From a virus: a stretch of DNA of 21,441 bases. The stretch spans positions 1-21,441 of IMG/VR virus record IMGVR_UViG_3300030616_000088; one strand, 5' to 3'. Below the pieces are notes generated by a model. That model did not search any database. It was not told where the DNA came from and worked only from the letters and a program-made list of their open reading frames with translations. The position numbers were made by a program, and so were the translations under genes. Shown here one piece after another: positions 5,132-18,543 of the stretch. Each line of letters starts with the position of its first letter. Position 1 is the stretch's first letter.

Positions 5132-5314
5132 TCATTTATCCTCCTTGGGCGATCTTCTAAAAAAGTATTGGAACACTAAAGTAAAAATCACAACCACCCA
5201 ATCGGGAAGGTTTATCTCTTTCCCAGAGCAAATAAGAAAACCTATATACCCCGTAAAGGCCAAGAGAACCAAATATTTAAAACAGACATCTATTAACAAT
5301 CGGTTTTTCATCAT
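5132..5314 (-). CDS. Two-helix membrane protein, holin candidate (60 aa)
   Basis: Two hydrophobic segments (about residues 11-29, FKYLVLLAFTGYIGFLIC, and 37-52, LPDWVVVIFTLVFQYFF) are separated by a short polar loop, with a charged tail (RRSPKEDK). The size and topology fit a class II-type holin. The start ATGATG overlaps the stop TGA of the large fibre gene, so translation is probably coupled; a separate ribosome binding site is weak. Its position after the tail fibre and near an amidase-like gene is typical of lysis cassettes. An inert small membrane protein remains possible. Confidence 0.6.
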   Translation of the reverse strand: MMKNRLLIDVCFKYLVLLAFTGYIGFLICSGKEINLPDWVVVIFTLVFQYFFRRSPKEDK

Positions 5315-7395
5315 TTTTCAAAGGCTATGTAAGTTACCTTGTAAGTTCCTGACGGACTGCCCGCTTTCGACCATGTAACAGTAAAAGACCCGTGGTCTGT
5401 GGCTGTAATCTTTGCCCTATTTACTGTTCCCCCCCCTTCATAATCATAAATTGAGTAGGTCGTATCCCCGTTGTAGTTAGCGAGTTTCCGATAAACACAT
5501 TGAGCGTTGCTCCCATCATCTGTTCCCCAACTTGCTTCGCCTGCGTCATCTTCCGCCCCAAAAAACAAAAATCTAGTAGGTTTAAAGCTTAACCCCGTGA
5601 CTTGTTGCGTGCCATCACCAGCAGTCGTATCCCGGGAAAATTGACCTGTTGCTGTTGCCCCAGAAGCAACCCCGCCTTCCCACGTTTTAGAGTTAGCGTT
5701 GTAATAAAGAACATACTGGTCTGTGGATTGGCTTAAATCTACGTTTAAATCCCCAATAGTAATTGTTCTATCCTCTGTTGGGTCTGTAACTGATACCGTG
5801 GTCTGCTTATTGTCGTCCGTTGCCCCTTCAAAGCTTACCTCACTTGCCAAATACAACTTTTTCCAGTACAACGCCTCCGACCCTAAATCATCCGTATTGG
5901 CGGTGTCCGAGATTAAAGACGTATTTATAGCCACAGAAGCTAAGTTATCCAAAGCTGTGCTTGCTCCGCCGACAGAGGCTAAAGCGTCATCTATCCCCTC
6001 TAAAATCGCCGCTAAGTCATCTACTGAATCCGCCTCACCTATGCTTGTGTCTGGGGTGATGTTATCCCAAGTAGCGGTTATTTCAATTTTGTCACCGTCT
6101 ATCGCCGCCGCCCCACCGTCTATAAAGATCGACACCCCGTTAAACCCAGTAAAGGCAGTTGTTCCGTCAAAAATGTTTGTGTACCATGTTTCATCAGTAA
6201 ACGAGCTATCATCGTCAGAATCAAAGTTATGCAAATAATCGTAGATATCGTCTTTTTCCGGGATGCCTGTGTCAGCGTTCCACCCGGAAGAATAAGCCTC
6301 GTTAGCACCTACTAACTCACTGGCTTCTATGACATTCGCTCCGCCTAAATGGGTCTCAAGTTCGGCCATAGTGTCTACTTCGGAGGTAGCCCCACCGTTT
6401 ACCCCTAAAAGTCCGGAATATCCCGAAACATTGGCCTCAACTCCGCCGTATTCATGCTCTATCGTCCCCGCAGAGAAGAAAGCAGTTGCGCTGTCACCAC
6501 TTGTCGCTGACCCGCCCTCAGAAGCACTAGCGGCATAATTAAAGTTAACGTCCCCGGAATCTACCGAATCATTGGGTAAATCTATATCCGCAGTCCCTTG
6601 GAATTGGATTGTAATTGTAGGTAAACTCGCGAACTTAATATAGTTGTTCACCCCGTCCCCTATTCTAAAATCGGAGGTAATGATCTGCTCTGTAAAAGAC
6701 CCGAAATTTATATCACCGTTTGCGTCAGGGTCGCTGATATCATCCCAAGCAGTAGCTCCACCAGCCGCGCCCAATGCGTCATCTATTCCTTCTAGGATGG
6801 CCGAAAGATCGTCTACACTATCAGCCTCGGCGATTCCCGTATCGGGGGTAATATTGTTCCATGTAGCGGTTATCTCAAGCTTATCTCCGTCAATAGGGTT
6901 AGCCCCGCCGTCTATAAATTGGCCTACGTTGCTTACACTAATATTATCCGGGACTTCGGAATCATCGTCTGGCTGGTCATCGTCAGGTGAGTCGTCAAGC
7001 GTATCTAGCGCTTTCTGGACAGTATCGTCCCCGGCCCCTAACCGTGTGTTAAAGTTAGTAACCGTAGTAGGAGTAGAGGAAGCGTTAATGTCGTCTAACG
7101 CCTCTAAACACTCCTGCACGGTGTCTGTGGTAGAGTTTAAGATACCATTAAAATTAGTCGTAATGACAGGAAAAGACGCGGCGTTGATGTTGTCTATCCT
7201 TTCTAAAGCCGTCTGAACAGTAGCCGGAGAAGCCAGAAACCCTTGCAACGTAGTATCATCTGTGTTAGTGATCTTGGCCTCATCGTAGACCATATCCATT
7301 TTTCCGGTGCTGTAATTATATTCCCAATTACTGTTCCCTGCCGCAAAAACAGAAATACACAGACTAAGCGCTAATAGTATAAGTATATGTCGCAT
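5311..7395 (-). CDS. Large repeat-rich tail fibre with Sec signal peptide (694 aa)
   Basis: The start at 7395 is chosen over an ATG at 7437 because AAAGG precedes it and it places a classic signal peptide at the N-terminus (MRHILILLALSLCISVFA). Residues ~35-130 hold TVQxALExLDxIN repeats, common in phage fibre shafts. A ~55-residue module beginning FIDGG and containing GDK(L/I)EITATW occurs twice, at about residues 160 and 424. The last ~110 residues (from GQFSRDTTAG) are a beta-rich domain shared with the 299-aa fibre and probably bind the receptor. The gene overlaps the small tail protein by 32 nt. A signal peptide on a fibre is unusual because phage tails normally assemble in the cytoplasm. 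Confidence 0.85.
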   Translation of the reverse strand: MRHILILLALSLCISVFAAGNSNWEYNYSTGKMDMVYDEAKITNTDDTTLQGFLASPATVQTALERIDNINAASFPVITTNFNGILNSTTDTVQECLEALDDINASSTPTTVTNFNTRLGAGDDTVQKALDTLDDSPDDDQPDDDSEVPDNISVSNVGQFIDGGANPIDGDKLEITATWNNITPDTGIAEADSVDDLSAILEGIDDALGAAGGATAWDDISDPDANGDINFGSFTEQIITSDFRIGDGVNNYIKFASLPTITIQFQGTADIDLPNDSVDSGDVNFNYAASASEGGSATSGDSATAFFSAGTIEHEYGGVEANVSGYSGLLGVNGGATSEVDTMAELETHLGGANVIEASELVGANEAYSSGWNADTGIPEKDDIYDYLHNFDSDDDSSFTDETWYTNIFDGTTAFTGFNGVSIFIDGGAAAIDGDKIEITATWDNITPDTSIGEADSVDDLAAILEGIDDALASVGGASTALDNLASVAINTSLISDTANTDDLGSEALYWKKLYLASEVSFEGATDDNKQTTVSVTDPTEDRTITIGDLNVDLSQSTDQYVLYYNANSKTWEGGVASGATATGQFSRDTTAGDGTQQVTGLSFKPTRFLFFGAEDDAGEASWGTDDGSNAQCVYRKLANYNGDTTYSIYDYEGGGTVNRAKITATDHGSFTVTWSKAGSPSGTYKVTYIAFEK

Positions 7396-7624
7396 GTTGA
7401 TCTTGCCTTTTGTTAAATTGTTTACTATTGTCCGCAAAAATTATTTGCGTGTTGAACCCATTAGAATCATAGATAAACTTCCTGATCCTCCAGACAGAAT
7501 CTGATTTTTTAGCCCCCGGGTCGGACTCGCAGACATACTCAACCTTGTTTTTAGCGTTCCCGCTCGTTCCCTTAACCTGTATCACCTGATATGGATAATC
7601 TAAGCTTGGTACTATTCCAGACAT
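7364..7624 (-). CDS. Conserved small phage tail-associated protein (86 aa)
   Basis: The segment SDPGAKKSDSVWRIRKF followed by TQIIFADNSKQFNKRQDQHATYTY matches the pattern I recall for a small protein family often next to phage tail fibre genes (APGs...s...WrI...y...iadGn..f...W..R..y.Y). Its molecular role is not known to me. The ATG has a strong AAGGAGG site. It directly precedes and overlaps the large fibre gene, consistent with a fibre-attachment or virion role. Confidence 0.75.
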   Translation of the reverse strand: MSGIVPSLDYPYQVIQVKGTSGNAKNKVEYVCESDPGAKKSDSVWRIRKFIYDSNGFNTQIIFADNSKQFNKRQDQHATYTYTISA

Positions 7625-7750: not shown

Positions 7751-9162
7751 TCACCACCTACACCTTTAAATCCCCCATACAAATATCGTCCTAAAAGGTA
7801 CGCACCTGCGCCTCCTGCCCCGATTTTCATGGTTTGTCTGCCTCGGTATTTGTTCATATTGGCCAATAGCTGTTTTGCGTTCCTTCCTAGCTCAACCAGG
7901 TCGTCAGCATACTCCTTAGAAAGATACTTTTTGAGTTCTCCGATCAATTTTGGAGTTGTCCTTATAGCTTGCCGTTCCCCGGCAGTCCCGATATTCTTTA
8001 AGGCAAAGGTGCTCGTAACCCCTTGGGTTCTCGGTTCTCCTCTTTTCCCAAAAATCCCCTCTAGCCTCTCCAAACGAGGGTACAGCTTATCACTCGCAAA
8101 CTTGTTAAGCTCTTCTATTTGCTTTCCGACTTCCGGATCAACCTTTTTCACTGCGTTGTTAATTTCTTCCTGCAACCGGCGAGAAACATTCATTTTTTGT
8201 ATTTTAGGGCTAGTCATTCCCCCCTTACCTCTCACTCCTCCCTGGAAATAATAGGACTTAGGCACTTTAGACCGTACTAACTGCTTTAGCTGTCTTAGTT
8301 TTCCTATGGTATCTATCCTTCCCTGGAAAAAATCATCTACCTGTTGCAAAAAGCTGTTTTTGGCCATTGTCGGGTTTACGGCGTCATCAAATCCCATTTT
8401 TAGAATTATGTCATCGGCGACATCTGGATTAAACGGGATATCATCAACTATCTGTCCTGCGGATGTTCTAGTTTTTTGGTAGAAAGAATCAAAAGCCCCA
8501 CCGATAGCGTCATCAAAGTTTTTATAAACCACTCTACCCAACTTGGCTTGGTCTGTAAACCATTTGTCGTTCATAATCTTTGGGCGTGCTTTTACTGCGG
8601 AGGAAACAATCTTTTCCGGAATACCTGTTAATAGTTGAGTTACTAACATATCTCCGGCCATATCAATTCCTTTTGATACCGGGCCAGGCAACCCAACTTC
8701 TCTAGCCGGATCACCGAATTTACCGACCTTATCCCCGGCTAGACTTTCTAGCATAGGCTTTCCAAACCGCCCTAAAGCAGGGCTTACGGCTGTCACCGCC
8801 ACGTCTTTTAAGGTTTGCTTGAGTGGCTTATCCTTTTCTGGAGACATTACGTTAGCCACACCCCCAACTATTCGCCTTCTTATTCCTTCTCCGATATCCA
8901 TTGTCGCTAAAGGTAGCCCCATAGGAGAAAACTTGCCGAAAGACATTTCTTTAATCAGGTTAGACATCGTTTTGGGAGGCGATACAAACTTACGAAAAGA
9001 AGATGTCAGCAAATCTCCCCCTTGGGGTTTTGTATCTATTGAACCACCCTTAGAGAACCTTTTAGGTTGCTTCCGAAGTGAAGAAGTCTTTTTTTCTTCC
9101 AATTCCTCTAAGGATATAATATTTTTTCTTTCTTCTAGTTCATCTAATGAAATAATTGGCAT
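7747..9162 (-). CDS. Probable internal virion or DNA-ejection protein (471 aa)
   Basis: The N-terminus contains two copies of IISL(D/E)ELEE(R/K)K (residues 3-13 and 15-25), followed by a basic Gly-rich linker. The middle is helical with many charged residues (residues ~210-420), and the C-terminus ends in a Gly-rich hydrophobic stretch (GAGGAGAYLLGRYLYGG). There is no catalytic motif. Position beside the 393- and 289-aa proteins, between fibres and lysis genes, matches the ejection-protein trio of P22/T7-type viruses, which form a conduit for DNA through the envelope. Ribosome binding site AAGGAGG. Assignment rests on context and architecture rather than sequence homology. Confidence 0.55.
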   Translation of the reverse strand: MPIISLDELEERKNIISLEELEEKKTSSLRKQPKRFSKGGSIDTKPQGGDLLTSSFRKFVSPPKTMSNLIKEMSFGKFSPMGLPLATMDIGEGIRRRIVGGVANVMSPEKDKPLKQTLKDVAVTAVSPALGRFGKPMLESLAGDKVGKFGDPAREVGLPGPVSKGIDMAGDMLVTQLLTGIPEKIVSSAVKARPKIMNDKWFTDQAKLGRVVYKNFDDAIGGAFDSFYQKTRTSAGQIVDDIPFNPDVADDIILKMGFDDAVNPTMAKNSFLQQVDDFFQGRIDTIGKLRQLKQLVRSKVPKSYYFQGGVRGKGGMTSPKIQKMNVSRRLQEEINNAVKKVDPEVGKQIEELNKFASDKLYPRLERLEGIFGKRGEPRTQGVTSTFALKNIGTAGERQAIRTTPKLIGELKKYLSKEYADDLVELGRNAKQLLANMNKYRGRQTMKIGAGGAGAYLLGRYLYGGFKGVGGD

Positions 9163-9174
9163 TTATCCTCCTTA

Positions 9175-10356
9175 TTAAATAGGGTTGCCATCTTGATCCA
9201 CGAAAACACCCCTTGAAGTATCATATCCAGTTGCCCCACGCTTCCGGGCGTTCTTTATTTCTTCAACCGTTACAGACATGCCGATATCTTTAGTTTGCTC
9301 CTCTCCATAGCTTTTGACAGCTTTAGCTCCTAAAACATACTCAATAGCATCCTCAATGCTCTTTTCTTCTTTAGAAGACAACTGGATCCCCGATAATACA
9401 GCGGCTATCTCTTTGTCAGACTGAACTTCGGAACTAGGATCAATACCCATCTCCCTTAACTTCTCTTCTGTCAAAAACCCGTTCTTAATAGCGTAAGCCA
9501 TAGTCATCATATTACGTATTGACTGAGCCATAAGATCGTTTCTGGTTTCAGGGATAATAGAAATGTCCGGGACAGTTCTTTTAATACGTTCACCTAAACT
9601 TTCAATGTACCTAGCCTGCCCTGATAAAATAGGAAGCAAACCAATAGACACCTCTTCTGTCTGTGCTTGCGCTCCTTGCAACGGCGCGGCCGCTTTCTTT
9701 AAAAAACTCGGAGCATACCTGAGCCTTCCTAAATCATAAGTCATCGCCGCTTTTGTTCCGGTGGCCCCAAACTCTTCATCTATCATTTTGAATTGTCGTT
9801 GTAAATTCCTCATAGCCCCAACAACCCTATTTAACTCACCAAACTTTTTCCCTAACTTTTCACTTTTATCTTTACCAGCCTGCTCTTTAGCTGAAACACT
9901 TATATCTTTAAACTTAGTAGGTACTAACTTACCAAACGGAGTTATCTTATAGTCTGTTGCGACAATGTCTTTTGACGGAGAAAACTGGCCGATCTTAGCC
10001 CCTTCCCCGGGGGACATGTCTTGATACGGAACGTCTATCACACCCCCAGTCTGCCCCATTACAGAAGTCGGGTCTATTCCTAAATTACCAAAAGCCTCTG
10101 CCACTTTCCCCATTCTTAAAATATTAGCCATTGGGTCTAAGTTTTGTTTAGCTCTTTCGTAATCTAGCGCTTCTTGCATGGATGTCGGCTTCCATGCTCC
10201 TGGTGTAGCGTACCTCTGGTCTATATCTCGTTTCATCTGATATAACCGCAAAGCGTCCTGTAACCCTTGACTTCTTTGCTGTTGAACCATTCGGCGGTTT
10301 GCTAAAGCAGAGGCGATCCCCCCAATATCCTTGTGTAAATTACTAAAATCTGCCAT
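9175..10356 (-). CDS. Probable internal virion protein (393 aa)
   Basis: A mostly helical protein. The N-terminal 65 residues (MADFSNLHKDIGG ... DALRLYQMKRDIDQ) are Gln/Arg-rich. A central region holds helix-forming repeats of basic and acidic residues, and the C-terminus ends FVDQDGNPI. No enzyme motif is recognised. AGGAGG ribosome binding site; 8 nt after the 289-aa gene. Its place between two other glycine-rich helical proteins supports an ejection or internal capsid role. A structural linker is the alternative. Confidence 0.55.
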   Translation of the reverse strand: MADFSNLHKDIGGIASALANRRMVQQQRSQGLQDALRLYQMKRDIDQRYATPGAWKPTSMQEALDYERAKQNLDPMANILRMGKVAEAFGNLGIDPTSVMGQTGGVIDVPYQDMSPGEGAKIGQFSPSKDIVATDYKITPFGKLVPTKFKDISVSAKEQAGKDKSEKLGKKFGELNRVVGAMRNLQRQFKMIDEEFGATGTKAAMTYDLGRLRYAPSFLKKAAAPLQGAQAQTEEVSIGLLPILSGQARYIESLGERIKRTVPDISIIPETRNDLMAQSIRNMMTMAYAIKNGFLTEEKLREMGIDPSSEVQSDKEIAAVLSGIQLSSKEEKSIEDAIEYVLGAKAVKSYGEEQTKDIGMSVTVEEIKNARKRGATGYDTSRGVFVDQDGNPI

Positions 10357-10364
10357 TCATCCTC

Positions 10365-11234
10365 CTAATTAAACGCTGATTGTATATAACCTTTTCCTCC
10401 GGGATAATAACTCTTGCCGTAGGAAGTATTAACGTACCCCGCAGGGTTAGAATAAGCCCGTCCAACTGGTTGCGAAGTCGGTAAGTTACTTAAAGCTAAA
10501 GCGTCTTGAAACCCTATCGGAGACCCTGCGCCACCGCCGGCCATAGCTCCCCCTAAAGAACCGCCGATTGAAGCCCCAATCATAGGAGCTCCGAAAAAAG
10601 AACCACCGATTGCACCGATCCCTGACCCTATCAAAGACCCTAAAGACCCCGCGCTTTGCCAATCGCTTAAAGCGTTCTGAAACCCTGCTTGAGAGTCAGC
10701 AACCCGCCCTTGATACTCCGCCAAAGACTTTAAGTTTGACTGCTGTATGTCTGTTTCTAGGTATGGGCCATATACGCTAGCAGGATCAATACCTATTTCT
10801 GCCATTAACGCCGCTTGACGTCCCTGTATTCCTAGCTCTGCCCTGCGTTGAGCTAAATCGGCAAGGTATTTGCCAACGTCATACCCAACGCGCCCTCTAG
10901 CTTGAGCTATTTGCTCGGCAAGAATAGGCGAAGAATACATCCCCGATAAAGAAAGGTTATGCTTGATAGAAGCTTCTAAGTCAGGTATGATGTTTTGAAA
11001 ATACTGATTGCCTAAAGCTTCCTCAAAGGAAGTCGGCCCATATTGAGCGTAATACTCTGGGCTTGCCTCTAAACTGCGTATATCCCTCAACCCCTTTTCC
11101 CTAGACATGGTGGCTTGGGGAAAAGTCTTTTTAGCCCAAGCTAATGCGTCCCTGAAAAATTCCGGAGCTTGATCGTAATGTATCGGCTTCGGCGGTGAAT
11201 AAGACGGCCTATCTCCAAATCCAAAAAATCCCAT
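10365..11234 (-). CDS. Probable DNA-ejection protein with glycine-zipper membrane segment (289 aa)
   Basis: Residues ~15-190 are helical with a PEFFRDALAWAKKTFPQ segment near the start. Residues 196-237 are an extended Gly/Ala/Ile stretch (SLGSLIGSGIGAIGGSFFG and following) typical of glycine-zipper membrane insertion in phage ejection proteins such as P22 gp7/gp20-type proteins. The tail is polar (SYGKSYYPGGKGYI). Strong GGAGGAG site. It sits just downstream of the secreted 133-aa protein and upstream of two further putative internal proteins, so the three probably form the DNA-transfer apparatus. Confidence 0.65.
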   Translation of the reverse strand: MGFFGFGDRPSYSPPKPIHYDQAPEFFRDALAWAKKTFPQATMSREKGLRDIRSLEASPEYYAQYGPTSFEEALGNQYFQNIIPDLEASIKHNLSLSGMYSSPILAEQIAQARGRVGYDVGKYLADLAQRRAELGIQGRQAALMAEIGIDPASVYGPYLETDIQQSNLKSLAEYQGRVADSQAGFQNALSDWQSAGSLGSLIGSGIGAIGGSFFGAPMIGASIGGSLGGAMAGGGAGSPIGFQDALALSNLPTSQPVGRAYSNPAGYVNTSYGKSYYPGGKGYIQSAFN

Positions 11235-11636
11235 TTACTCCTCCAATTTTAAAAGCTGTTTCAAGTCATTAAAAGATTCTTCCGACAACCCCAACTCTTT
11301 TTTTATTTTTTCAAGCTTTTTAACTTTTTCGGTCTTCTCTTTCTTCTTCTTTTCCTCCACAGGATCAATAATCCATTTTTTCTCAAGGATTTCCCATTCT
11401 TTTAAAGACACATATTTCTCTACCACGTCATTTTTTGAGTGCCCCGAACTTACGGCATTTTTGGTTAATGTCCCCAATTCAGCGTACCCCGTTTGAAACT
11501 CAATCAGCTTGCCGGTGTCTTTCTCCACGCAAACTCTGCCGTAAACTCCGTTTTTCTCAACAATCACCATTGGCAAGGGTTGTGCGAATACACACCCGCA
11601 CCAAATAACAAAAAGGATAGTAAAGCCCTTAGTCAT
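11235..11636 (-). CDS. Secreted hypothetical protein with charged C-terminus (133 aa)
   Basis: A short signal peptide (MTKGFTILFVIWCGCVFA, cleavage after VFA) is followed by a beta-rich segment (PMVIVEKNGVYGRVCVEKDTG) and, from about residue 85, a Lys/Glu-rich coiled-coil-like tail. No family is recognised. It overlaps the end of the fibre gene by 8 nt and ends directly before the ejection protein gene, so it is part of the tail operon. With five neighbours it forms the set of signal-peptide proteins within the virion block. Could be a periplasmic chaperone or tail part. Confidence 0.65.
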   Translation of the reverse strand: MTKGFTILFVIWCGCVFAQPLPMVIVEKNGVYGRVCVEKDTGKLIEFQTGYAELGTLTKNAVSSGHSKNDVVEKYVSLKEWEILEKKWIIDPVEEKKKKEKTEKVKKLEKIKKELGLSEESFNDLKQLLKLEE

Positions 11637-12528
11637 AAGCTATATACACCACCGTTATAGTTCCTGACGCCCCACCAGTACGAGTCCACGCCACAGTAAA
11701 CCCGTCAGAATCAAAACTGTTAATATTGCCTTCATATATATTGCTTGCGTCTTGGTGAATACGAATACTGTCGTCCGTGTCTGCGTTGAAAACCGTCCCC
11801 GATCTATACACACATGCCGCAGTCGTTCCGTCATCAGCCCCCCAGGAAACCTCGTCAGAGTCGGCGTCCGTAGCGTAAAAATCAACCGCTCTTGGGGTAA
11901 ACCCTACCCCTGTAACTGATTGGTTGCCCGAAGCCGTGCCTTCGTCTCTAGTGAAAGTCCCGACATAAATATCCGTTCTGCTATCTATATACTCTTTTAC
12001 CGCCTTTTCAGTAGGGACAGCGGTATTTGAACTATCTCCTAAAGTCAAATCCGTGGAAAACTCGTTTATCGCCGCACCGTTCTCTAACGTCAGCCCAACA
12101 CTTGACATTGACGCCGCTTGCGTTCCCCCACAATCAAACCTTAAAAAATCTTCGTCCGCCGATTCTTCCGTCTGTATCTTGGTATCCCTGTCTTTATCCC
12201 AAATAAACGAACTGAAATTGTTGAAAGCAGACCCATCATCTACGTTCCAGGATTTTTCGCTAGTGTTATAAACCACTCGTCCATTTGTCCCCGCGGAAGG
12301 AGTAGACCCTAACGATTCATAAAACCTAAACCCAGAGGAAGTTTTAGCGTTATCATTGTCAAGGTTCCCGTTAACAACCGTGACTATATTACTGACATTA
12401 CCGTTTAACTTTGTGTTAGTAACCTGATCGGTCGCGGTGTAAGTATGGTAAACGCTAATCTGATCCGCAAACGCCACACCGAAAAGAACCAAAAACCCTA
12501 ATAACCCAAGTAAAAACTTCTTTTTCAT
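11629..12528 (-). CDS. Short tail fibre with Sec signal peptide (299 aa)
   Basis: The start at 12528 is set by the GGAGGAG site overlapping the upstream ATG at 12540. The N-terminus MKKKFLLGLLGFLVLFGVAFA is a textbook signal peptide. The motif LGDSSNTAVPTEKAVKEYID at about residues 163-182 is common in phage fibre stalks. The last ~110 residues (from YVGTFTRDEGTAS) are a beta domain with GVGFTPRAVDFYA, WGADDGTTAACVY and TVVYIAY that is clearly paralogous to the end of the 694-aa fibre. The start overlaps the stop of the 536-aa gene (ATGA). Confidence 0.85.
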   Translation of the reverse strand: MKKKFLLGLLGFLVLFGVAFADQISVYHTYTATDQVTNTKLNGNVSNIVTVVNGNLDNDNAKTSSGFRFYESLGSTPSAGTNGRVVYNTSEKSWNVDDGSAFNNFSSFIWDKDRDTKIQTEESADEDFLRFDCGGTQAASMSSVGLTLENGAAINEFSTDLTLGDSSNTAVPTEKAVKEYIDSRTDIYVGTFTRDEGTASGNQSVTGVGFTPRAVDFYATDADSDEVSWGADDGTTAACVYRSGTVFNADTDDSIRIHQDASNIYEGNINSFDSDGFTVAWTRTGGASGTITVVYIAYD

Positions 12529-14135
12529 TCTCTCCTCCAAGGTTTCATGTAGGCGAAAATAGTCGCCCTATGTAAGTCGCACAATTCGCTAAGTCCATCC
12601 TGGACAACTCTTATCTTTATGTTTTTAAACTCCCCATACTGTTGCAGTTGGAAAGTCTCTCTCGCCACTCCACTAGCACTTAGGGTAAACGGTAATGACA
12701 CAGGTAAAGTCACAGCGCCACCGGCCAAGTTCATATCCCCAACTCTTTGCCACCCGCCGTCATCCATTTCGATATAGACATCAGCGTCATAGTCACCGCT
12801 CGCTCCAAGCTCTAAGTCCAAGGCGTCCAACATCTTATAGTTTTCGGGGTTATCAAAAGAAATGTTTTTGGACCGCCAGTCAAAAGTAATCGCAACGGAA
12901 GGCTCGGAAGACCCTGTAACCACCGGCCCCTCGTACATATCCCCCGTAGTTCCGGTGAAGCACTCAATCATCCGCCCATCATTAGCGTCTATATAGTAAA
13001 GGTCGTTTTCATAAACTATCCATTCTGCGGGATACCACCCATCAATAGTGGTCCACGACTTAGTAAGAAAATCATATACAACTACATAATCGTTTACAGT
13101 AGAAACCCCTGTAGGAATACCCAAAATATACTTATTGTCATGCAAGATAGCGCACGCCACATCTATTGAAGAAACATTTATCGTGGTTTCCCCCGTCCCG
13201 TCAAAAATATCTTGTATCGGGTCAGAAGCTCTATCCAAAAGAATTTTGTCAAAGCTTGACCGGATTAAGCTCCTTACAGCTATCGGCTCACTTGATAAAA
13301 ACCAATGATCGTTCCCAATGTTAACAACCGATCTTTCTGCGGCACACCCGATTGTTCTGCTTATAGGTTTATAAGCCCAGTCAGCTAATGGGGTTGACCC
13401 CGTTATATCAAGCATATAAACACTTCGTTGCTTATAGACTATGATTTCGTTCTCTCTAAACGGCTCTATCCTTACTATCTCTTGTCCGTCTCCGGTGTTT
13501 ATCTTTATCACGTTATTAGCGGTAAACTCTCTAGGTTCAAGGTTGTTTGAAAAATATACCCAATCCGGATAGGTAGGGTTGCCGGCTAAAAACAAATAGT
13601 TAGCAACCCAAGCTCCGGTTGTAGCTTTGGGCGGGCTAGCTGGGTAAACTGTCCCTACCGAGGTTGGCAAAACAAAAGTAGACCCATCGTACCAAGAAGT
13701 GTTGTCTTCCCCATTAAAAATAAACAGTAAGTTGTCGGCCTGTAAAAATTCGGTATTATACCCTGCCGTTAAAGCCTTCCCTGTATTAACAACCGTCCAA
13801 CTAGCTCCTGCCGAAGTAGAGCGGACAATATCTGTGCCAGAAGCGGCTAAAACGTAAGATGTTGTTGAATCCGGGTAAAAATCCCCTACCCCTCGAAAAG
13901 CCGTGTTCCCAAGGTCATCCGCGAAAAGAGCCTGTCCTTTTCTTTTTTCTAGCCTTCCTCGCTTTTCCTGGCTAGCGTTTTGGACGAGTTCTCCTTGGTT
14001 TACGTCTATGCTATCGGCTAAATCATAGCTATTCTGCCCTCCGGAAAAATCGTCAATACGGACCTTTATTAACTCTTGCGAGTACGCCGAGGCAACCAAA
14101 AACAACGAAATCGTTAAAGTTAAAAACTTTTTCAT
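12525..14135 (-). CDS. Tail / DNA-stabilisation-like beta-propeller protein with signal peptide (536 aa)
   Basis: After the N-terminal MKKFLTLTISLFLVASAYS comes IDDFSGGQNSYDLADSIDVNQ then RGRLEKRKGQALFAD, a pattern typical of phage stabilisation or tail-hub proteins (P22 gp10-like in layout) that begin with fGGlN...e...N...G.l.kR.G. The middle shows repeated beta-blade features (WVANYLFLAGNPTYPDWVYFSNN; VVVYDFLTKSWTTIDGWYP). It lies directly after the adaptor-like gene, the usual place for the protein that closes the head-tail channel. The signal peptide is completely unexpected for such a component, which normally assembles onto filled heads in the cytoplasm. Confidence 0.75.
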   Translation of the reverse strand: MKKFLTLTISLFLVASAYSQELIKVRIDDFSGGQNSYDLADSIDVNQGELVQNASQEKRGRLEKRKGQALFADDLGNTAFRGVGDFYPDSTTSYVLAASGTDIVRSTSAGASWTVVNTGKALTAGYNTEFLQADNLLFIFNGEDNTSWYDGSTFVLPTSVGTVYPASPPKATTGAWVANYLFLAGNPTYPDWVYFSNNLEPREFTANNVIKINTGDGQEIVRIEPFRENEIIVYKQRSVYMLDITGSTPLADWAYKPISRTIGCAAERSVVNIGNDHWFLSSEPIAVRSLIRSSFDKILLDRASDPIQDIFDGTGETTINVSSIDVACAILHDNKYILGIPTGVSTVNDYVVVYDFLTKSWTTIDGWYPAEWIVYENDLYYIDANDGRMIECFTGTTGDMYEGPVVTGSSEPSVAITFDWRSKNISFDNPENYKMLDALDLELGASGDYDADVYIEMDDGGWQRVGDMNLAGGAVTLPVSLPFTLSASGVARETFQLQQYGEFKNIKIRVVQDGLSELCDLHRATIFAYMKPWRRE

Positions 14136-15092
14136 TTACATCCTATGCGCTTGTGCGAACATTGTCGTAAGTTTATGCTGATAGTCTGGCCCAAGCTTTG
14201 CATTCTGGTTCGTTAATAGGTTATACAAAGCGTCCTTTGATTTTCTCCACATATCACTAGCCCTTTGCGAATCTCTATCTTGAGCGAAACAGTACCCCGC
14301 GGCTTCTAACACAAGAAAGTTGTCGGCCTCAATAAAGGGGTAATCTTCGTCATCGTTCAGCTTGTTTTTCTTTTTCTTGAACAAAGTCCTCATGGAATAA
14401 GCCCCATCTGGGATAAGCCCTAGTTTCATTACCTTATGCCTTAAAACTCTAGTCTTTGAAGCTAAAATCGCTAACGTAGTGTTAGAGGAATCCGCCAAAG
14501 TCAAATATCCTGTGGTATCCTGTGACTTACTAACATGCGTTATCCCATAAAAGGTCTTGGTCCCTGAAGCCCACCCTGTCGGGCCGGAGGCGGAAATCGT
14601 TATCTCTTCATAATCTAAAATCGTCTTGCTAGAATCAATGTACCCCTCTACCCTTATAACTGGGTTGTCAGTATCGCTCGCCGATGAACTCTTGGCTTTT
14701 AATGTCGTGCCCGTTGCCCCTATTGTTCCGGTTATCCCCTTAACCCCGAAAAGACGAAAATTCTCTGGTTTCCCTGTCACGGAATCCGCAATGTTTTGTA
14801 TGTTTCCGTCAAAATATTCTTCTTCTGTTTCGGGAGAGATTTTTTTGTTATTGGTAAGATCATAAACCCTTAAAGGCTTATCGAAATGAGCCGGCATGAC
14901 ATAGTTTTCTGTTCCGTCAACAGTGGTAAAATTATAAACGTCCTGCAACTCGGTGAAATAATCATAAGAGTTAAACAAGAAATCTTGAGCTAGATTAAGA
15001 AAAACCGCCGCTTCATCGTTTAAATAGCTTGGGTCATCAGACCGCTGAACTATATACCCCGTCTGGGTTTTTAACTCACCGAAGTTATACAT
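14136..15092 (-). CDS. Head-tail adaptor-like protein (318 aa)
   Basis: The pattern LNLAQDFLFNSYDYFTELQDVYNFTTVDGTENYVMPAHFDKPLRVYDL, then YFDGNIQNIADSVTGKPENFRLFG, matches a common phage adaptor/connector-type family with an N-terminal helical bundle and a beta insert ('tyaLP.dfd...rvy', 'G.P..frl.g'). No signal peptide, unlike its downstream neighbour. An AGGAG site precedes ATG 15092; a TTG three bases upstream is less likely. The C-terminal half includes a basic stretch (LFKKKKNKLNDDEDYPF) and a helical end. It would bind the portal, whose gene is off window. Confidence 0.65.
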   Translation of the reverse strand: MYNFGELKTQTGYIVQRSDDPSYLNDEAAVFLNLAQDFLFNSYDYFTELQDVYNFTTVDGTENYVMPAHFDKPLRVYDLTNNKKISPETEEEYFDGNIQNIADSVTGKPENFRLFGVKGITGTIGATGTTLKAKSSSASDTDNPVIRVEGYIDSSKTILDYEEITISASGPTGWASGTKTFYGITHVSKSQDTTGYLTLADSSNTTLAILASKTRVLRHKVMKLGLIPDGAYSMRTLFKKKKNKLNDDEDYPFIEADNFLVLEAAGYCFAQDRDSQRASDMWRKSKDALYNLLTNQNAKLGPDYQHKLTTMFAQAHRM

Positions 15093-15301
15093 CAATATCT
15101 CCTTGCTTTTGAAACAGGGTGGACTCCAGTAATCTGTAAAATAGTAAAGCTTCTAGTTTTCTCAATAACCCTGTAATTCATTATGACCTGAACTTTCTGC
15201 CCTATTTTCGTTTCGTTTAGCCCCATAGCCATTTGTTCCGGGATCGTCACTTCCGGTTGGCCGCCAGGGTAATACATGCTAGCAACTCGTTTAAAAGTCA
15301 T
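15092..15301 (-). CDS. Small beta-rich phage protein (69 aa)
   Basis: The segment NETKIGQKVQVIMNYRVIEKTRSFTILQITGVHPV looks like a compact barrel ('iGqkv.v...yrVi......i.i..v.pv'). This resembles small phage proteins of unknown role found near connector genes. The 73-aa neighbour has a similar arrangement (IGEKGQMRANLVLDSERLEMEEG ... VTAEDIQ), so the two may be distant paralogues. AAAGGAGA ribosome binding site. It overlaps the neighbours upstream (4 nt) and downstream (1 nt). Confidence 0.7.
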   Translation of the reverse strand: MTFKRVASMYYPGGQPEVTIPEQMAMGLNETKIGQKVQVIMNYRVIEKTRSFTILQITGVHPVSKARRY

Positions 15302-15529: not shown

Positions 15530-15889
15530 TTAATAAGTTGCTAAGATACTAACCGGACTCGCTACATACTGGTCAAAATAAACAGTTACCCCTGATGTAG
15601 AATAATTCTCTAAAGTAAGTTGCATTGCCCCTGCCAACCTTATACTTCCCGCGGTGTCAACAACATTAGGAGAACTGGATACATCTGAAAAATCAACCCA
15701 AACAGCATGGCTTGTGTCACCGTTTAGCACGGATACCGACCTACATGACTGATAGGGAAAAGATATAAACTCCTTTGCGTTTTCAGCGTCTAAATATACG
15801 GTTTTCTGGTAAACATTCTGTTTATAATCCTGTGCAAACACCGATACCGCGAAAATTACAAACAACCCCACAAACAAAGCTTTCTTCAT
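15530..15889 (-). CDS. Secreted small beta protein in the virion operon (119 aa)
   Basis: Signal peptide MKKALFVGLFVIFAVSVFA with cleavage after VFA, then a domain with alternating beta-type residues (AKEFISFPYQSCRSVSVLN; MQLTLENYSTSGVTVYFDQY). The 'sv.v.N.d.s..vWVdf' and 'a..ltlenys..gvtvyfd' pattern suggests a small beta-sandwich of the sort found in phage decoration or tail proteins. No family name is recognised. Strong AAAGGAGG site and ATGA overlap with the 65-aa gene. Confidence 0.7.
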   Translation of the reverse strand: MKKALFVGLFVIFAVSVFAQDYKQNVYQKTVYLDAENAKEFISFPYQSCRSVSVLNGDTSHAVWVDFSDVSSSPNVVDTAGSIRLAGAMQLTLENYSTSGVTVYFDQYVASPVSILATY

Positions 15890-16083
15890 CTCATCCTCCT
15901 TTGGACTAAATCTTGTCTTTCTTTTTCCGTTAAAGTGTCAAAGTTAGCCCTATCCACTAACTTACCGTCCCGTTCAAAAAGTTTTCCCTCTAGCTCCCCA
16001 TACCAAAATCCAGAAATATCGCACCGTTTAAGCTTCCCTTTATACCAAGACGGAAGCCCTTTTGACCGCCCTTTTCTGCTCAT
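15886..16083 (-). CDS. Small conserved phage protein (65 aa, RCDxSGFWY motif)
   Basis: Starts MSRKGRSKGLPSWYKGKLKRCDISGFWY, followed by a turn (ERDGKLVDRANFDTLTEKERQD). The RCDxSGFWY....L..rdG.lV...~.DtLte pattern is one I recall from small zinc-finger-like phage proteins near head genes, but here only one Cys remains, so zinc binding is unlikely. The ATG at 16083 has AAAGGAG 7 nt upstream and lies inside the end of the O-antigen ligase-like gene (44-nt overlap). Probably the true continuation of the operon after that insertion. Confidence 0.7.
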   Translation of the reverse strand: MSRKGRSKGLPSWYKGKLKRCDISGFWYGELEGKLFERDGKLVDRANFDTLTEKERQDLVQRRMR

Positions 16084-17230
16084 GCACAACTCCTTTGAAT
16101 AGCCCGTAAAATAAAACAAAAAACATTCCTGACATAGCCACATGATTAGCGAAAACACCCATACTGCATAACATATAAGCTAAAAGACAACAAAAATATA
16201 AGCACAGCTCTTTGTTTCTGTACCGCTTAAACTCCCGGAAAAAGCTTACAAGAAAGAAAACTAAAATCGCTAGCCCCAGGCGTCCAAACTCAAAGATCAA
16301 CTCTATATAATCATTATGAAAATGCGTGTACTTCTCAAGCCGGCGGTTAAAGTATCTGTTCTCTTTGTATAACGGCAAAACTTTAGACGTGCTCCCTAAC
16401 CCATACCCTGTCCAAGTATTAGCGCCCAATATCTTTTCATGGTGCTTGACCTCTAACGGAATATGACCCGTTAACATAGCCTCAAACCCTACCTTTGCCG
16501 GGGCGATCCTCCCGTGCAAATGCCCTAAGACGTTTTTGTCGTATTTGGTAAAGAAAACCGCCGCCCCGCATAAGAGAATCACCAACGTAAAGTATCTTAG
16601 TTTATGCTTAGTTAAAAAAAGATAAACGATAGACGCTACTGTAAACCCGACAAAAGCGAACGAAGTCGTAGAACAAAAAAGACCGAAAAGGACCAATGGC
16701 AGTAAAACAGGGCATACCCCAACAGCTATCGGGGCGGTAGTCGCAAAGAAAACCCCTAGTTGGTTATGGCTTCCGCTGAATCCCACAGTATCATCGCTGG
16801 AATAATCAACTTTTCCGTGAACGACCTTAGTAAACAAAGGATCAATGCCGTTAGCTTGTAAAATAACCCAAGCCCCTTGAAGGAGAATCAACCCAATGAT
16901 AGCCCAACAGACTATCTTCCTTTTCTTAACCGTCAGGTTGCTTATTCCATACATAGCCAACCCCGCGAGGTAGACTTCTCCTGTGATAAACATAGCTTTC
17001 ATGTTTAATTTGGTAACGAATATCGCCGAAAGAAGGCACATAATCGAAAAAAGAGAGATAGCTTTGTCAAACTTCCATAAGAAAATAGACACACCTACCA
17101 TAAATAACGCAATCAGCGCAATACATTGAGGATACCAGACATCAGCCCCAGGCATTGGAATAGCCGCCGACAACGGAACTATAAATAGCGAAGCGATAAT
17201 AAGAATTAAATATTTGTTTATAGTTTTCAT
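16040..17230 (-). CDS. O-antigen ligase/polymerase-like (WaaL/Wzy) membrane protein (396 aa)
   Basis: About ten hydrophobic segments across the length. SGSHNQLGVFF (His155) and YTHFHNDYIELIFEFGRLG (residues 301-319) form the characteristic Wzy_C/O-antigen ligase signatures, with the HNDY histidine in the large periplasmic loop and a conserved Arg241 region (GRIAPAKVGFEAML) before it. Such proteins attach or polymerise O-antigen sugars on lipid carriers at the periplasmic face. Phage-encoded versions are known to change host serotype (for example phage D3). Here the gene sits inside the virion operon. It has no ribosome binding site and its ATG follows directly on the U-tract of an intrinsic terminator, suggesting low or special expression. 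Confidence 0.85.
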   Translation of the reverse strand: MKTINKYLILIIASLFIVPLSAAIPMPGADVWYPQCIALIALFMVGVSIFLWKFDKAISLFSIMCLLSAIFVTKLNMKAMFITGEVYLAGLAMYGISNLTVKKRKIVCWAIIGLILLQGAWVILQANGIDPLFTKVVHGKVDYSSDDTVGFSGSHNQLGVFFATTAPIAVGVCPVLLPLVLFGLFCSTTSFAFVGFTVASIVYLFLTKHKLRYFTLVILLCGAAVFFTKYDKNVLGHLHGRIAPAKVGFEAMLTGHIPLEVKHHEKILGANTWTGYGLGSTSKVLPLYKENRYFNRRLEKYTHFHNDYIELIFEFGRLGLAILVFFLVSFFREFKRYRNKELCLYFCCLLAYMLCSMGVFANHVAMSGMFFVLFYGLFKGVVHEQKRAVKRASVLV

Positions 17231-17261
17231 AATAAAAACAAGGGGAGGCCGAAACCTCCCC
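17231..17261 (-). terminator. Intrinsic terminator behind the capsid genes
   Basis: On the minus strand a 7-bp GGGGAGG/CCTCCCC stem with a 6-nt loop (17242-17261) is followed by TTGTTTTTATT. It lies 10 nt past the stop of the secreted 118-aa gene and ends exactly at the ATG of the O-antigen ligase-like gene, so it should limit read-through from the capsid genes. Confidence 0.85.
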
Positions 17262-17271
17262 GATCTTGCTA

Positions 17272-17628
17272 TTAGTCTCCTAGCGTGTTACCTCTTACCG
17301 TGTTTTGTGTGCCTACGGCGGTGCTACTAGCAATGGCTATCCTGTACTGCCCCCAACTACCAGTAGGGAAACTAGCAATTTCCCGGATACTGGTTGAAGA
17401 AGTAATGCACAGAACCCCAGAAGCTACATAAAGATAGTATGGTTCGTCCTTTACAGCGTCATACAACTCTATGTACCCCGGGTTGCCGGTAACATCTAAC
17501 CCGTTTACACTCAGATTACCGTAGTTAGATTTCCCCTCATAATTGTAAGTCGGGTTTCTAACACTTTGAGCGTAGCAAAGCGAGGACACGAATAAGATCA
17601 TCAACACGCTGATGATAGCTTTCCTCAT
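17272..17628 (-). CDS. Secreted small protein directly behind the capsid gene (118 aa)
   Basis: Signal peptide MRKAIISVLMILFVSSLCYA, cleavage after CYA, then NPTYNYEGKSNYGNLSVNGLDVTG, a beta-rich middle (GYIELYDAVKDEPYYLYVASG) and a Ser/Thr-rich end. The 'l.vnGldvtG..g.ie~yda~.~~pyyl.v' pattern suggests a virion decoration or fibre-type domain. Strong AAAGGAGGG site, 12 nt after the major capsid protein stop, and followed by a terminator, so it should be expressed as strongly as the capsid. A signal peptide at this position is highly unusual. Confidence 0.72.
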   Translation of the reverse strand: MRKAIISVLMILFVSSLCYAQSVRNPTYNYEGKSNYGNLSVNGLDVTGNPGYIELYDAVKDEPYYLYVASGVLCITSSTSIREIASFPTGSWGQYRIAIASSTAVGTQNTVRGNTLGD

Positions 17629-17640
17629 AATCCCTCCTTT

Positions 17641-18543
17641 TTACGCTCCCGCACTTCCGTAAGTACCCATATAATGTGAGTACCCTACTGAAAACCTCAT
17701 GCGTTGTAAGTGTTTCAAGTTAGTAGAATCAAAGTCCGTCCCCCTACGCAAAGCGCCCGGTTTAACTCTCCAGAAGAATTTAAGCTTGTGCTTTGACTTC
17801 TCAGCTAACAAGAACCATGCGTCAGTGTCAGTAAGATAGTGGCTTACAAAATACTGCAAGTCCTTCTCCTGCAAGGCGTTGCGTTCGTTGTTGGCTACAT
17901 AAGGTTTATACTCTGATCCTAGCAATTCATCTGCTATGTTCCAAAGGTCAACAGGAACAAGCAAGGTTACAGCCTTTGTCGGCTGTTTTAAGCCTCTTTC
18001 GTCTTCCAACTTCTCTATCGCGGTGATAGCCGCTGTTAAAGAAGTAACGCTTAAATCAGCGTCAGTGGAAGGTTTGTTGGCTTGTGTTCCGCCAGAAAGA
18101 ACCGGGTGAGAAGCAGAAAGCAGCGGTACACCGTCAAACCCGTTGGTTGTAAACCCGTTGTTGAACACGTTGAACGCTGTTATTTCTACTGTCTCTTCCG
18201 CGCTTCTTGACAAAGCAGTCGGAAGCTTGTCAAAAGTTTCCGGGGTCCGCAAGTTATCTTCTATGGCCTCTTCGGTGATCTCATAGCCTAGCGCATAAGT
18301 AGTATGCACGTAAGTTTTTGAGATACCAGTATATAGAGTGTCGTAGTCTGCGGCCGACCCTTCGGCTTTCTCCTGGAACAATCCAAACCCAGAGACAAGG
18401 CTGTCTTTCTCGGACTGCTTATCGCTAGATTCTACGTTAAAAACTTTCCTGTACTCTTCACCCCAACCGTTTAAACCGTCTTGGTGCATTTCGTTCAAGT
18501 TGGCGTCAAGAGTGTCTACCATAATTGTTGAGTTAATAGGCAT
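17641..18543 (-). CDS. Major capsid protein (Mu gpT-like features, 300 aa)
   Basis: Residues 75-100 (SKTYVHTTYALGYEITEEAIEDNL) and 136-150 (FDGVPLLSASHPVLS) match the pattern of Mu-like major head subunits with an HK97-type fold, and the C-terminal segment (HKLKFFWRVKPGALRRGTDFD, then MRFSVGYSHYMG) fits the strand-rich core. The length of 300 is in the family range. No signal peptide. Strong GGAGGG site. It is preceded by the decoration-like gene and, further upstream, the scaffold-like gene, the usual order for head genes. Confidence 0.82.
   Translation of the reverse strand: MPINSTIMVDTLDANLNEMHQDGLNGWGEEYRKVFNVESSDKQSEKDSLVSGFGLFQEKAEGSAADYDTLYTGISKTYVHTTYALGYEITEEAIEDNLRTPETFDKLPTALSRSAEETVEITAFNVFNNGFTTNGFDGVPLLSASHPVLSGGTQANKPSTDADLSVTSLTAAITAIEKLEDERGLKQPTKAVTLLVPVDLWNIADELLGSEYKPYVANNERNALQEKDLQYFVSHYLTDTDAWFLLAEKSKHKLKFFWRVKPGALRRGTDFDSTNLKHLQRMRFSVGYSHYMGTYGSAGA

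Follow-up and report, generated by a model that had tools for sequence, protein, structure and literature searches.

A gene for a membrane transferase of the Wzy_C family is a fixed resident of the capsid operon in a clade of phages, and not a stray insertion there, and genes for proteins with predicted signal peptides turned out to be its strongest correlate. The window, by which we mean the whole stretch of viral DNA that was analysed, comprises the 21,441 nt of IMG/VR record IMGVR_UViG_3300030616_000088 (locus label G000). The features on which our analysis draws are as follows, from the capsid gene onwards in the direction of transcription.

17641..18543, minus strand: major capsid protein gene (Phage_capsid_4 / gpT-like), from profile matches
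17272..17628, minus strand: SP118, a 118-aa protein with a predicted Sec signal peptide, the invariant upstream neighbour of the wzy-like gene
17231..17261, minus strand: hairpin (17242-17261) and U-rich tail leading into the wzy-like ATG, with no Shine-Dalgarno sequence in between, from a terminator scan and folding
16040..17230, minus strand: wzy-like gene, for a 396-aa polytopic membrane transferase of the Wzy_C family (WaaL/PglL superfamily), from Pfam, fold match and synteny
16508-16510, minus strand: codon of the invariant R241 of the wzy-like gene, from the alignment (17/17)
16310..16324, minus strand: HxHND catalytic-loop motif (H303/H305/N306), invariant in 17/17 aligned proteins
15886..16083, minus strand: 65-aa gene that shares 44 nt with the 3' end of the wzy-like gene
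15530..15889, minus strand: 119-aa protein, conserved across the clade, for which a Sec signal peptide is predicted
14136..15095, minus strand: SU10-type adaptor, no signal peptide predicted, from a profile match
12525..14135, minus strand: 536-aa nozzle/head-closure-like protein (phrog_5107, phrog_3287, phrog_578) with a predicted Sec signal peptide
11629..12540, minus strand: protein of about 299 aa with a short tail-fibre PHROG match and a signal peptide predicted by our rule
11235..11636, minus strand: 133-aa protein with a signal peptide predicted by the same rule
5311..7437, minus strand: repetitive protein of about 694 aa, signal peptide likewise predicted by rule

The wzy-like gene is intact in the window, with 396 codons, an ATG start and no internal stops, and the earlier note's description of its product as a WaaL/Wzy-type protein is borne out. 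The protein matches Pfam Wzy_C (PF04932) over residues 179-324 with 40.9 bits (E 2.3e-10), above the curated cut-off of 31.7 bits, and 12 of the 12 members of our alignment A5 match the same domain at E <=0.1. An AlphaFold model from a 17-row alignment of the window and locus proteins, which replaced an earlier four-row model with a pLDDT of 66, reached a pLDDT of 86.6; its best structural match was WaaL (7tpg; Z 21.9, rmsd 3.8, 293 residues aligned), and in this structural second look FtsW/RodA scored Z 12-15 and unrelated chains Z <7. Foldseek alone matched the model to WaaL with E 8.4e-3 and a probability of 1.00. When the 17 proteins were combined into a profile, it found two solved relatives only in the PDB at E up to 1, namely 9rmk, named 'Oligosaccharyltransferase' (59.1 bits, residues 35-355), and WaaL 7tpg (48.8 bits, residues 175-322). 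Judging by its name and length, 9rmk is probably of the PglL type; it was absent from the structural second look, which is no evidence against the likeness. A Wzy_C protein with a predicted GT-C fold of the WaaL type is thereby confirmed at the level of profiles and models, and the fold alone does not separate ligase, polymerase and protein transferase.

Four residues, R241, H303, H305 and N306, are kept in all 17 aligned wzy-like proteins, and an HX10G loop runs from H305 to G316. Two HN motifs had been claimed for the protein; the one within HxHND is invariant, whereas of the first only N156 is conserved and H155 is not. Our reading of the alignments is that R241 probably corresponds to R288 of E. 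coli WaaL, and the roles that we assign to His and Arg are taken from what is reported in work on WaaL (PMC3643930, PMC10449877, PMC4815439). Enzymes of the superfamily are described as working at the periplasmic face, where they transfer glycans linked to undecaprenyl diphosphate; a His is catalytic, and an Arg lies near the diphosphate (PMC10449877). The likeness to WaaL (7tpg/7tpj) thus takes in the superposed fold, the Wzy_C domain, the HxHND loop and the conserved Arg, whereas the wzy-like protein differs in being phage-encoded, in a capsid operon and 15% identical to WaaL, with an acceptor that is only a candidate. The PglL/PilO type is brought to mind by 9rmk being the best PDB profile match and by the position beside a gene for an exported protein (PMC3643930), but SP118 is no pilin and the PglL_A motif (PF15864) was found in 0 of 12 members at E 0.1, which, as far as profile matches can tell, is an argument against a protein acceptor. 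PilO is presented in PMC3643930 as an O-OTase that likewise has no PglL motifs.

Searches of INPHARED returned zero relatives of the window protein at E 0.1, and zero of the L105, L106 and L100 proteins at E 0.01. Nothing was gained from a single-protein pattern scan of IMG/VR or from one alignment scan of GTDB genomes, and nothing further from searches of PHROGs, NCBIfam, PADLOC and Rfam; a viral structure library offered a weak, possible relative, a protein of Arthrobacter phage Faja (E 0.026). Further loci were collected by IMG/VR scans with alignments of the wzy-like protein and of its neighbour, plus one GTDB hit. The sole cellular match is contig VGTM01000014.1 (L115), a phage contig of the clade in a 'Euryarchaeota' MAG, and it holds the only Wzy_C match in the 2.1 Mb of that MAG; its placement there is possibly mis-binning rather than a host assignment.

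The gene order capsid, SP118, wzy-like gene is found in 21 of the 21 loci that contain both ends, or 18 loci once near-duplicates are merged (L099, L107 and L109 repeat L098, L101 and L108); L103, which begins within the wzy-like gene, and L120, which stops near the gene start, were left out of this count. The earlier note had placed the gene within the structural operon, correctly, between the capsid gene and small connector genes, and had not remarked on the 118-aa gene at 17272-17628 that separates it from the capsid gene. Its picture of a gene 'lodged' in the operon, which 'interrupts' it, has to be given up, since the gene has the same place in every gene-bearing relative found. A missing Wzy_C match, or a gene absent from all close relatives together with disabling mutations, had been set beforehand as refuting outcomes; the domain matches, and close relatives have the gene. 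Their capsid proteins are 74-76% identical, and wzy-like proteins are 26-40% identical to that of the window (alignments A1, A3, A5 and A6). The overlap with the following gene measures 32 nt in L002 and 50 nt in L003, and the 65-aa gene of the window is served by a GGAG site of its own that lies within the wzy-like reading frame. L082 has about 7 kb of other genes after the wzy-like gene instead of the overlapping small gene; at 9263-12518 of that locus, between the wzy and connector genes, lie two related repeat proteins and a CxxC-repeat protein that resembles the small gene after wzy elsewhere.

Outside the clade, a Wzy_C-like gene also lies behind the capsid gene in L105, which has a Phage_capsid_2 capsid and a Head-tail_con portal and whose wzy-like protein scores 22.1 bits with Pfam, below the cut-off, and in L106, which has a protease-capsid fusion. 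Both wzy-like proteins are 17-19% identical to that of the window. Given that the capsid domain of L106 is Phage_capsid_4, as in the window, L106 is a different phage type with a capsid that is not wholly unrelated. The records of 78 distant capsid relatives (L004-L081), mostly fragments, contain no Wzy_C match. A moron is an accessory gene that is transcribed independently. The wzy-like gene has neither a promoter of its own, as judged from a scan with the sigma-70 consensus only, which found no promoter-like site on the same strand from the capsid gene to wzy, nor the absence from close relatives that marks a moron, being present in all those found. In open-access literature, searched by titles and abstracts and including few subscription journals, we found no description of a phage capsid operon with a Wzy_C gene as a fixed member, and none of a phage oligosaccharyltransferase that acts on virion proteins.

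The hairpin at 17242-17261, with TTGTTTTTATT continuing into the wzy-like ATG, was the top terminator-like site in 11.4 kb scanned. Its fold has a z-score of -2.55 against shuffles, and the hairpins of four loci gave -2.6 to -5.2. In all 18 loci a hairpin separates the SP118 stop codon from the wzy start; these hairpins have unrelated sequences and energies of -16.6 to -30.3 kcal/mol, and 7 of 216 random windows from the same loci match the weakest of the 18 in strength. Nearly all other gene-bearing loci are missing a U run like that of the window, such that a terminator U-tract abutting the ATG, as claimed before, is real in the window but not a feature of the family, which has kept the hairpin and not the U-tract. 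Among the distant relatives, 74 have 150 nt or more of sequence behind the capsid gene, and in all 74 a strong hairpin directly follows that gene (z from 8 mononucleotide shuffles, and hence rough); a U-rich tail was counted at 47 of the 74, a rough figure, since tails that fold into the stem escape the count. Since these 74 relatives have a hairpin and no wzy-like gene, the simplest reading is that the hairpin is an inherited post-capsid terminator; most simply, it now lies behind SP118 in the wzy clade and has mostly lost its U-tract. We considered and rejected the idea of a device specific to the wzy-like gene, given its presence in all gene-less relatives examined and the poor U-tract elsewhere. 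T-phi of T7 is similar in being a terminator directly behind the capsid gene (gene 10), and T7 genes 11 and 12, which lie beyond it, are described as made only by read-through (PMC5592923). The window clade differs from T7 in having SP118 before the hairpin and the U-tract mostly lost, and in a membrane-enzyme gene without a Shine-Dalgarno sequence that begins just past the hairpin.

The earlier note was also right that the wzy-like ATG of the window has no ribosome binding site: no Shine-Dalgarno sequence precedes it, whereas sites of the GGAGG type stand before both SP118 and the capsid gene. Among the loci, all 17 capsid genes and all 12 SP118 genes that were scored (those with unfixed starts were excluded) are preceded by a Shine-Dalgarno match of >=4 nt, as against only 2 of 18 wzy starts (for L101 and L104, the start coordinates used were 3 nt off). 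We also rejected a split ribosome site, a device of the phage T4 kind in which folding of the hairpin would move a remote Shine-Dalgarno sequence close to the start: GGAGG stands at the stem foot in L002 alone, and the predicted fold pairs it within the stem. We propose that the wzy-like gene is poorly translated because it has no Shine-Dalgarno sequence and that this, combined with the hairpin, would give the cell plentiful capsid protein and little transferase.

Signal peptides were predicted by a home-made rule, not SignalP, which asks for a basic N-terminus, a hydrophobic core, small residues at -3/-1 and no later membrane span. Downstream genes were counted within 8 kb of the capsid gene, excluding duplicates and loci with <700 nt. 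Behind the capsid gene, 45 of 164 genes have a predicted signal peptide in loci with the wzy-like gene (20 of 20 loci), as against 5 of 414 genes (5 of 64 loci) in relatives without it, so a previous hint of envelope-directed proteins is upheld. Among genes upstream of the capsid gene, a signal peptide is predicted for 1 of 146 in gene-bearing loci and for 0 of 464 in gene-less ones. Six genes of the window have a predicted signal peptide, SP118 and the nozzle-like protein among them. Fisher p-values are tiny, and overstated because the loci are related; since the gene-bearing phages are mostly one clade, the association rests on <=3 independent lineages, two of which (L105 and L106) were found only via the enzyme. 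Both of these have a signal-peptide gene directly before the Wzy_C-like gene, behind the capsid gene. SP118 has no detectable homology to the gene after the capsid gene in relatives without Wzy_C, and profiles of the 119-aa and nozzle-like proteins found no homology among the post-capsid genes of distant relatives.

Other proteins of these phages deserve mention. Tailed-phage proteins of the nozzle type are expected to assemble in the cytoplasm, and a Sec signal peptide on the nozzle-like protein is odd for such a tail part; homologues in L003, L098, L104, L115 and L119 also begin with a classical Sec signal peptide. A minus-strand frame at 2-541 of the window, cut by the record end, has a C-terminal run of GGTV-x(3) repeats. 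In L105, an adaptor-like gene after the wzy-like gene (8657-9568) has two CBM_5_12 carbohydrate-binding modules. The G003 phage, a clade member, encodes a hexapeptide sugar acetyltransferase of the PglD/NeuD-like kind (L091 15258-15887). In L119 (5841-7551) and L120 an insert, about 0.8 kb long, divides the capsid gene; it has a frame in which a LAGLIDADG-like motif was seen by eye, and is probably an intron or an intein-like element.

SP118 and Wzy distances correlate after allowing for capsid distances (partial r 0.50, 5/999 permutations; 0.35, 20/999, without the outlier L118). The SP118 and Wzy trees have in common a 5|10 split, with support of 99/99 and 85/88, that is absent from the capsid tree, although the capsid data do not reject it (AU p 0.144). 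Only 1 of 12 splits agrees per pair of trees, so resolution is low, and since SP118 adjoins the Wzy gene, linkage by itself may account for the history that they share. One Ser of SP118 (S77 in the window) is invariant and a Ser-Phe/Pro-Pro (S86) nearly so, and both serines are candidate glycan sites; acceptor serines of PglL enzymes are described as having a turn or proline alongside (PMC3643930). The S+T content of mature SP118 is 19.9%, only slightly higher than the 16.2% of the capsid protein.

From the tool-supported family, predicted fold, motif, synteny, hairpin, missing Shine-Dalgarno sequence and signal-peptide association, we infer an activity, a low dose, an acceptor and a purpose for the enzyme. 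Our best explanation, put forward tentatively and with rather less than even confidence, is that it is a late, low-dose, periplasm-facing transferase that moves host lipid-linked glycan onto the phage's exported proteins. The wzy-like gene would be a core late gene of a clade of uncultured short-tailed phages and would share a transcript with the capsid gene, through either read-through of the inherited post-capsid hairpin or processing of the RNA there. Its product would be a GT-C type transferase from the WaaL/PglL superfamily, seated in the inner membrane with its active site, R241 with H303/H305, towards the periplasm. Late in infection, it would take up host undecaprenyl-diphosphate-linked glycan and transfer it, most likely to the phage's own exported proteins and to SP118, encoded immediately upstream, before others; it may thus act as a dedicated O-oligosaccharyltransferase with its acceptor gene adjacent, masking or altering exported or particle-borne proteins. 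A protein acceptor is suggested by the invariant, predicted-exported neighbour directly upstream in all 21 loci, the signal-peptide association, the oligosaccharyltransferase as best profile match and the slight relation to the Wzy-beta of phage D3. PglL-type genes are reported often to adjoin the gene of their acceptor (21 of 31; PMC3643930).

A close competitor, to which we give only slightly less weight, is that the enzyme modifies the host surface as an alternative O-antigen polymerase or ligase. Late in infection, or in a lysogen, it would alter how the surface glycan is linked or attached, or how long it is, such that superinfection is blocked and progeny are kept off debris. Its Pfam domain is identical to that of known Wzy proteins, and phage precedents for surface change are described in D3 (Wzy-beta; PMC4815439) and in Acinetobacter prophages (PMC13228068), whose products are likewise phage-encoded members of the O-antigen ligase/polymerase group, that of D3 with an HX9-10G motif. 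The PglD/NeuD-like acetyltransferase of G003 fits surface modification at least equally well, and a tyrosine integrase was found in 1 of 13 gene-bearing records (G083; a serine recombinase in 0 of 13, many records being fragments). However, those precedents are accessory genes that temperate phages carry singly and apart from the head-tail operon, as the D3 genome shows: there wzy-beta is not part of the late operon but is encoded on the opposite strand, flanked by tail-fibre and endolysin genes, with an acetylase gene next to it and attP about 2.5 kb away. D3 Wzy-beta scores only -0.5 bits with the wzy-like family profile, against 21.9 bits with Pfam. The Acinetobacter prophage wzy genes are described as close to depolymerase genes and as swapping between prophages (PMC13228068), in contrast to one kept place in the clade, and surface modification alone leaves the link to signal-peptide genes unexplained.

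Two further accounts seem to us much less probable. The enzyme might have another envelope role, as a polymerase, ligase or scavenger of lipid-linked glycan with no single protein acceptor, making room for exported phage proteins or weakening the envelope before lysis. This is improbable, if compatible with the late position, the many predicted exported phage proteins and a fold group common to the peptidoglycan polymerases FtsW/RodA; against it, HxHND is a motif of the WaaL/PglL kind, and at the sequence level only a ligase and an oligosaccharyltransferase are matched. Lastly, that the gene is a passenger or moron, presently functionless and trapped behind a terminator, is very hard to credit. 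The absent Shine-Dalgarno sequence, the hairpin directly upstream and the reading frame broken in two in L102, the sole such member, would fit a passenger; against it stand the single place in 21 of 21 loci, the catalytic motif invariant in 17 of 17 proteins, a dN/dS of 0.24 in the sole informative pair (L106/L129) and an overlap with the next gene that is conserved in three loci.

Phage O-antigen and capsule polymerases have so far been known as tradeable accessory genes of temperate phages. Here a superfamily member occupies a constant position in the head-tail operon across a clade, accompanied by predicted signal peptides in the same operon. If the enzyme modifies phage proteins, this would be a periplasmic-side protein-glycosylation system of phages. 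Glycosylated mycobacteriophage particles are comparable in that a phage's own structural proteins are proposed to be glycosylated, with the difference that glycosyltransferases are proposed there (PMC11256854), as against a periplasm-facing transferase of lipid-linked glycan and exported proteins here. The broader claim, that in the clade, and in two or more phages whose capsid genes differ, part of the structural-operon products are exported through Sec and decorated with host glycan by a phage O-oligosaccharyltransferase, we regard as unlikely; if true, the particle or exported parts would wear a coat of host sugar, and some particle maturation would take place outside the cytoplasm. If instead it is the host that is modified, the enzyme would act as a late switch of the cell surface throughout the clade. 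On either reading, the signal-peptide pattern raises the question of where the particle is assembled.
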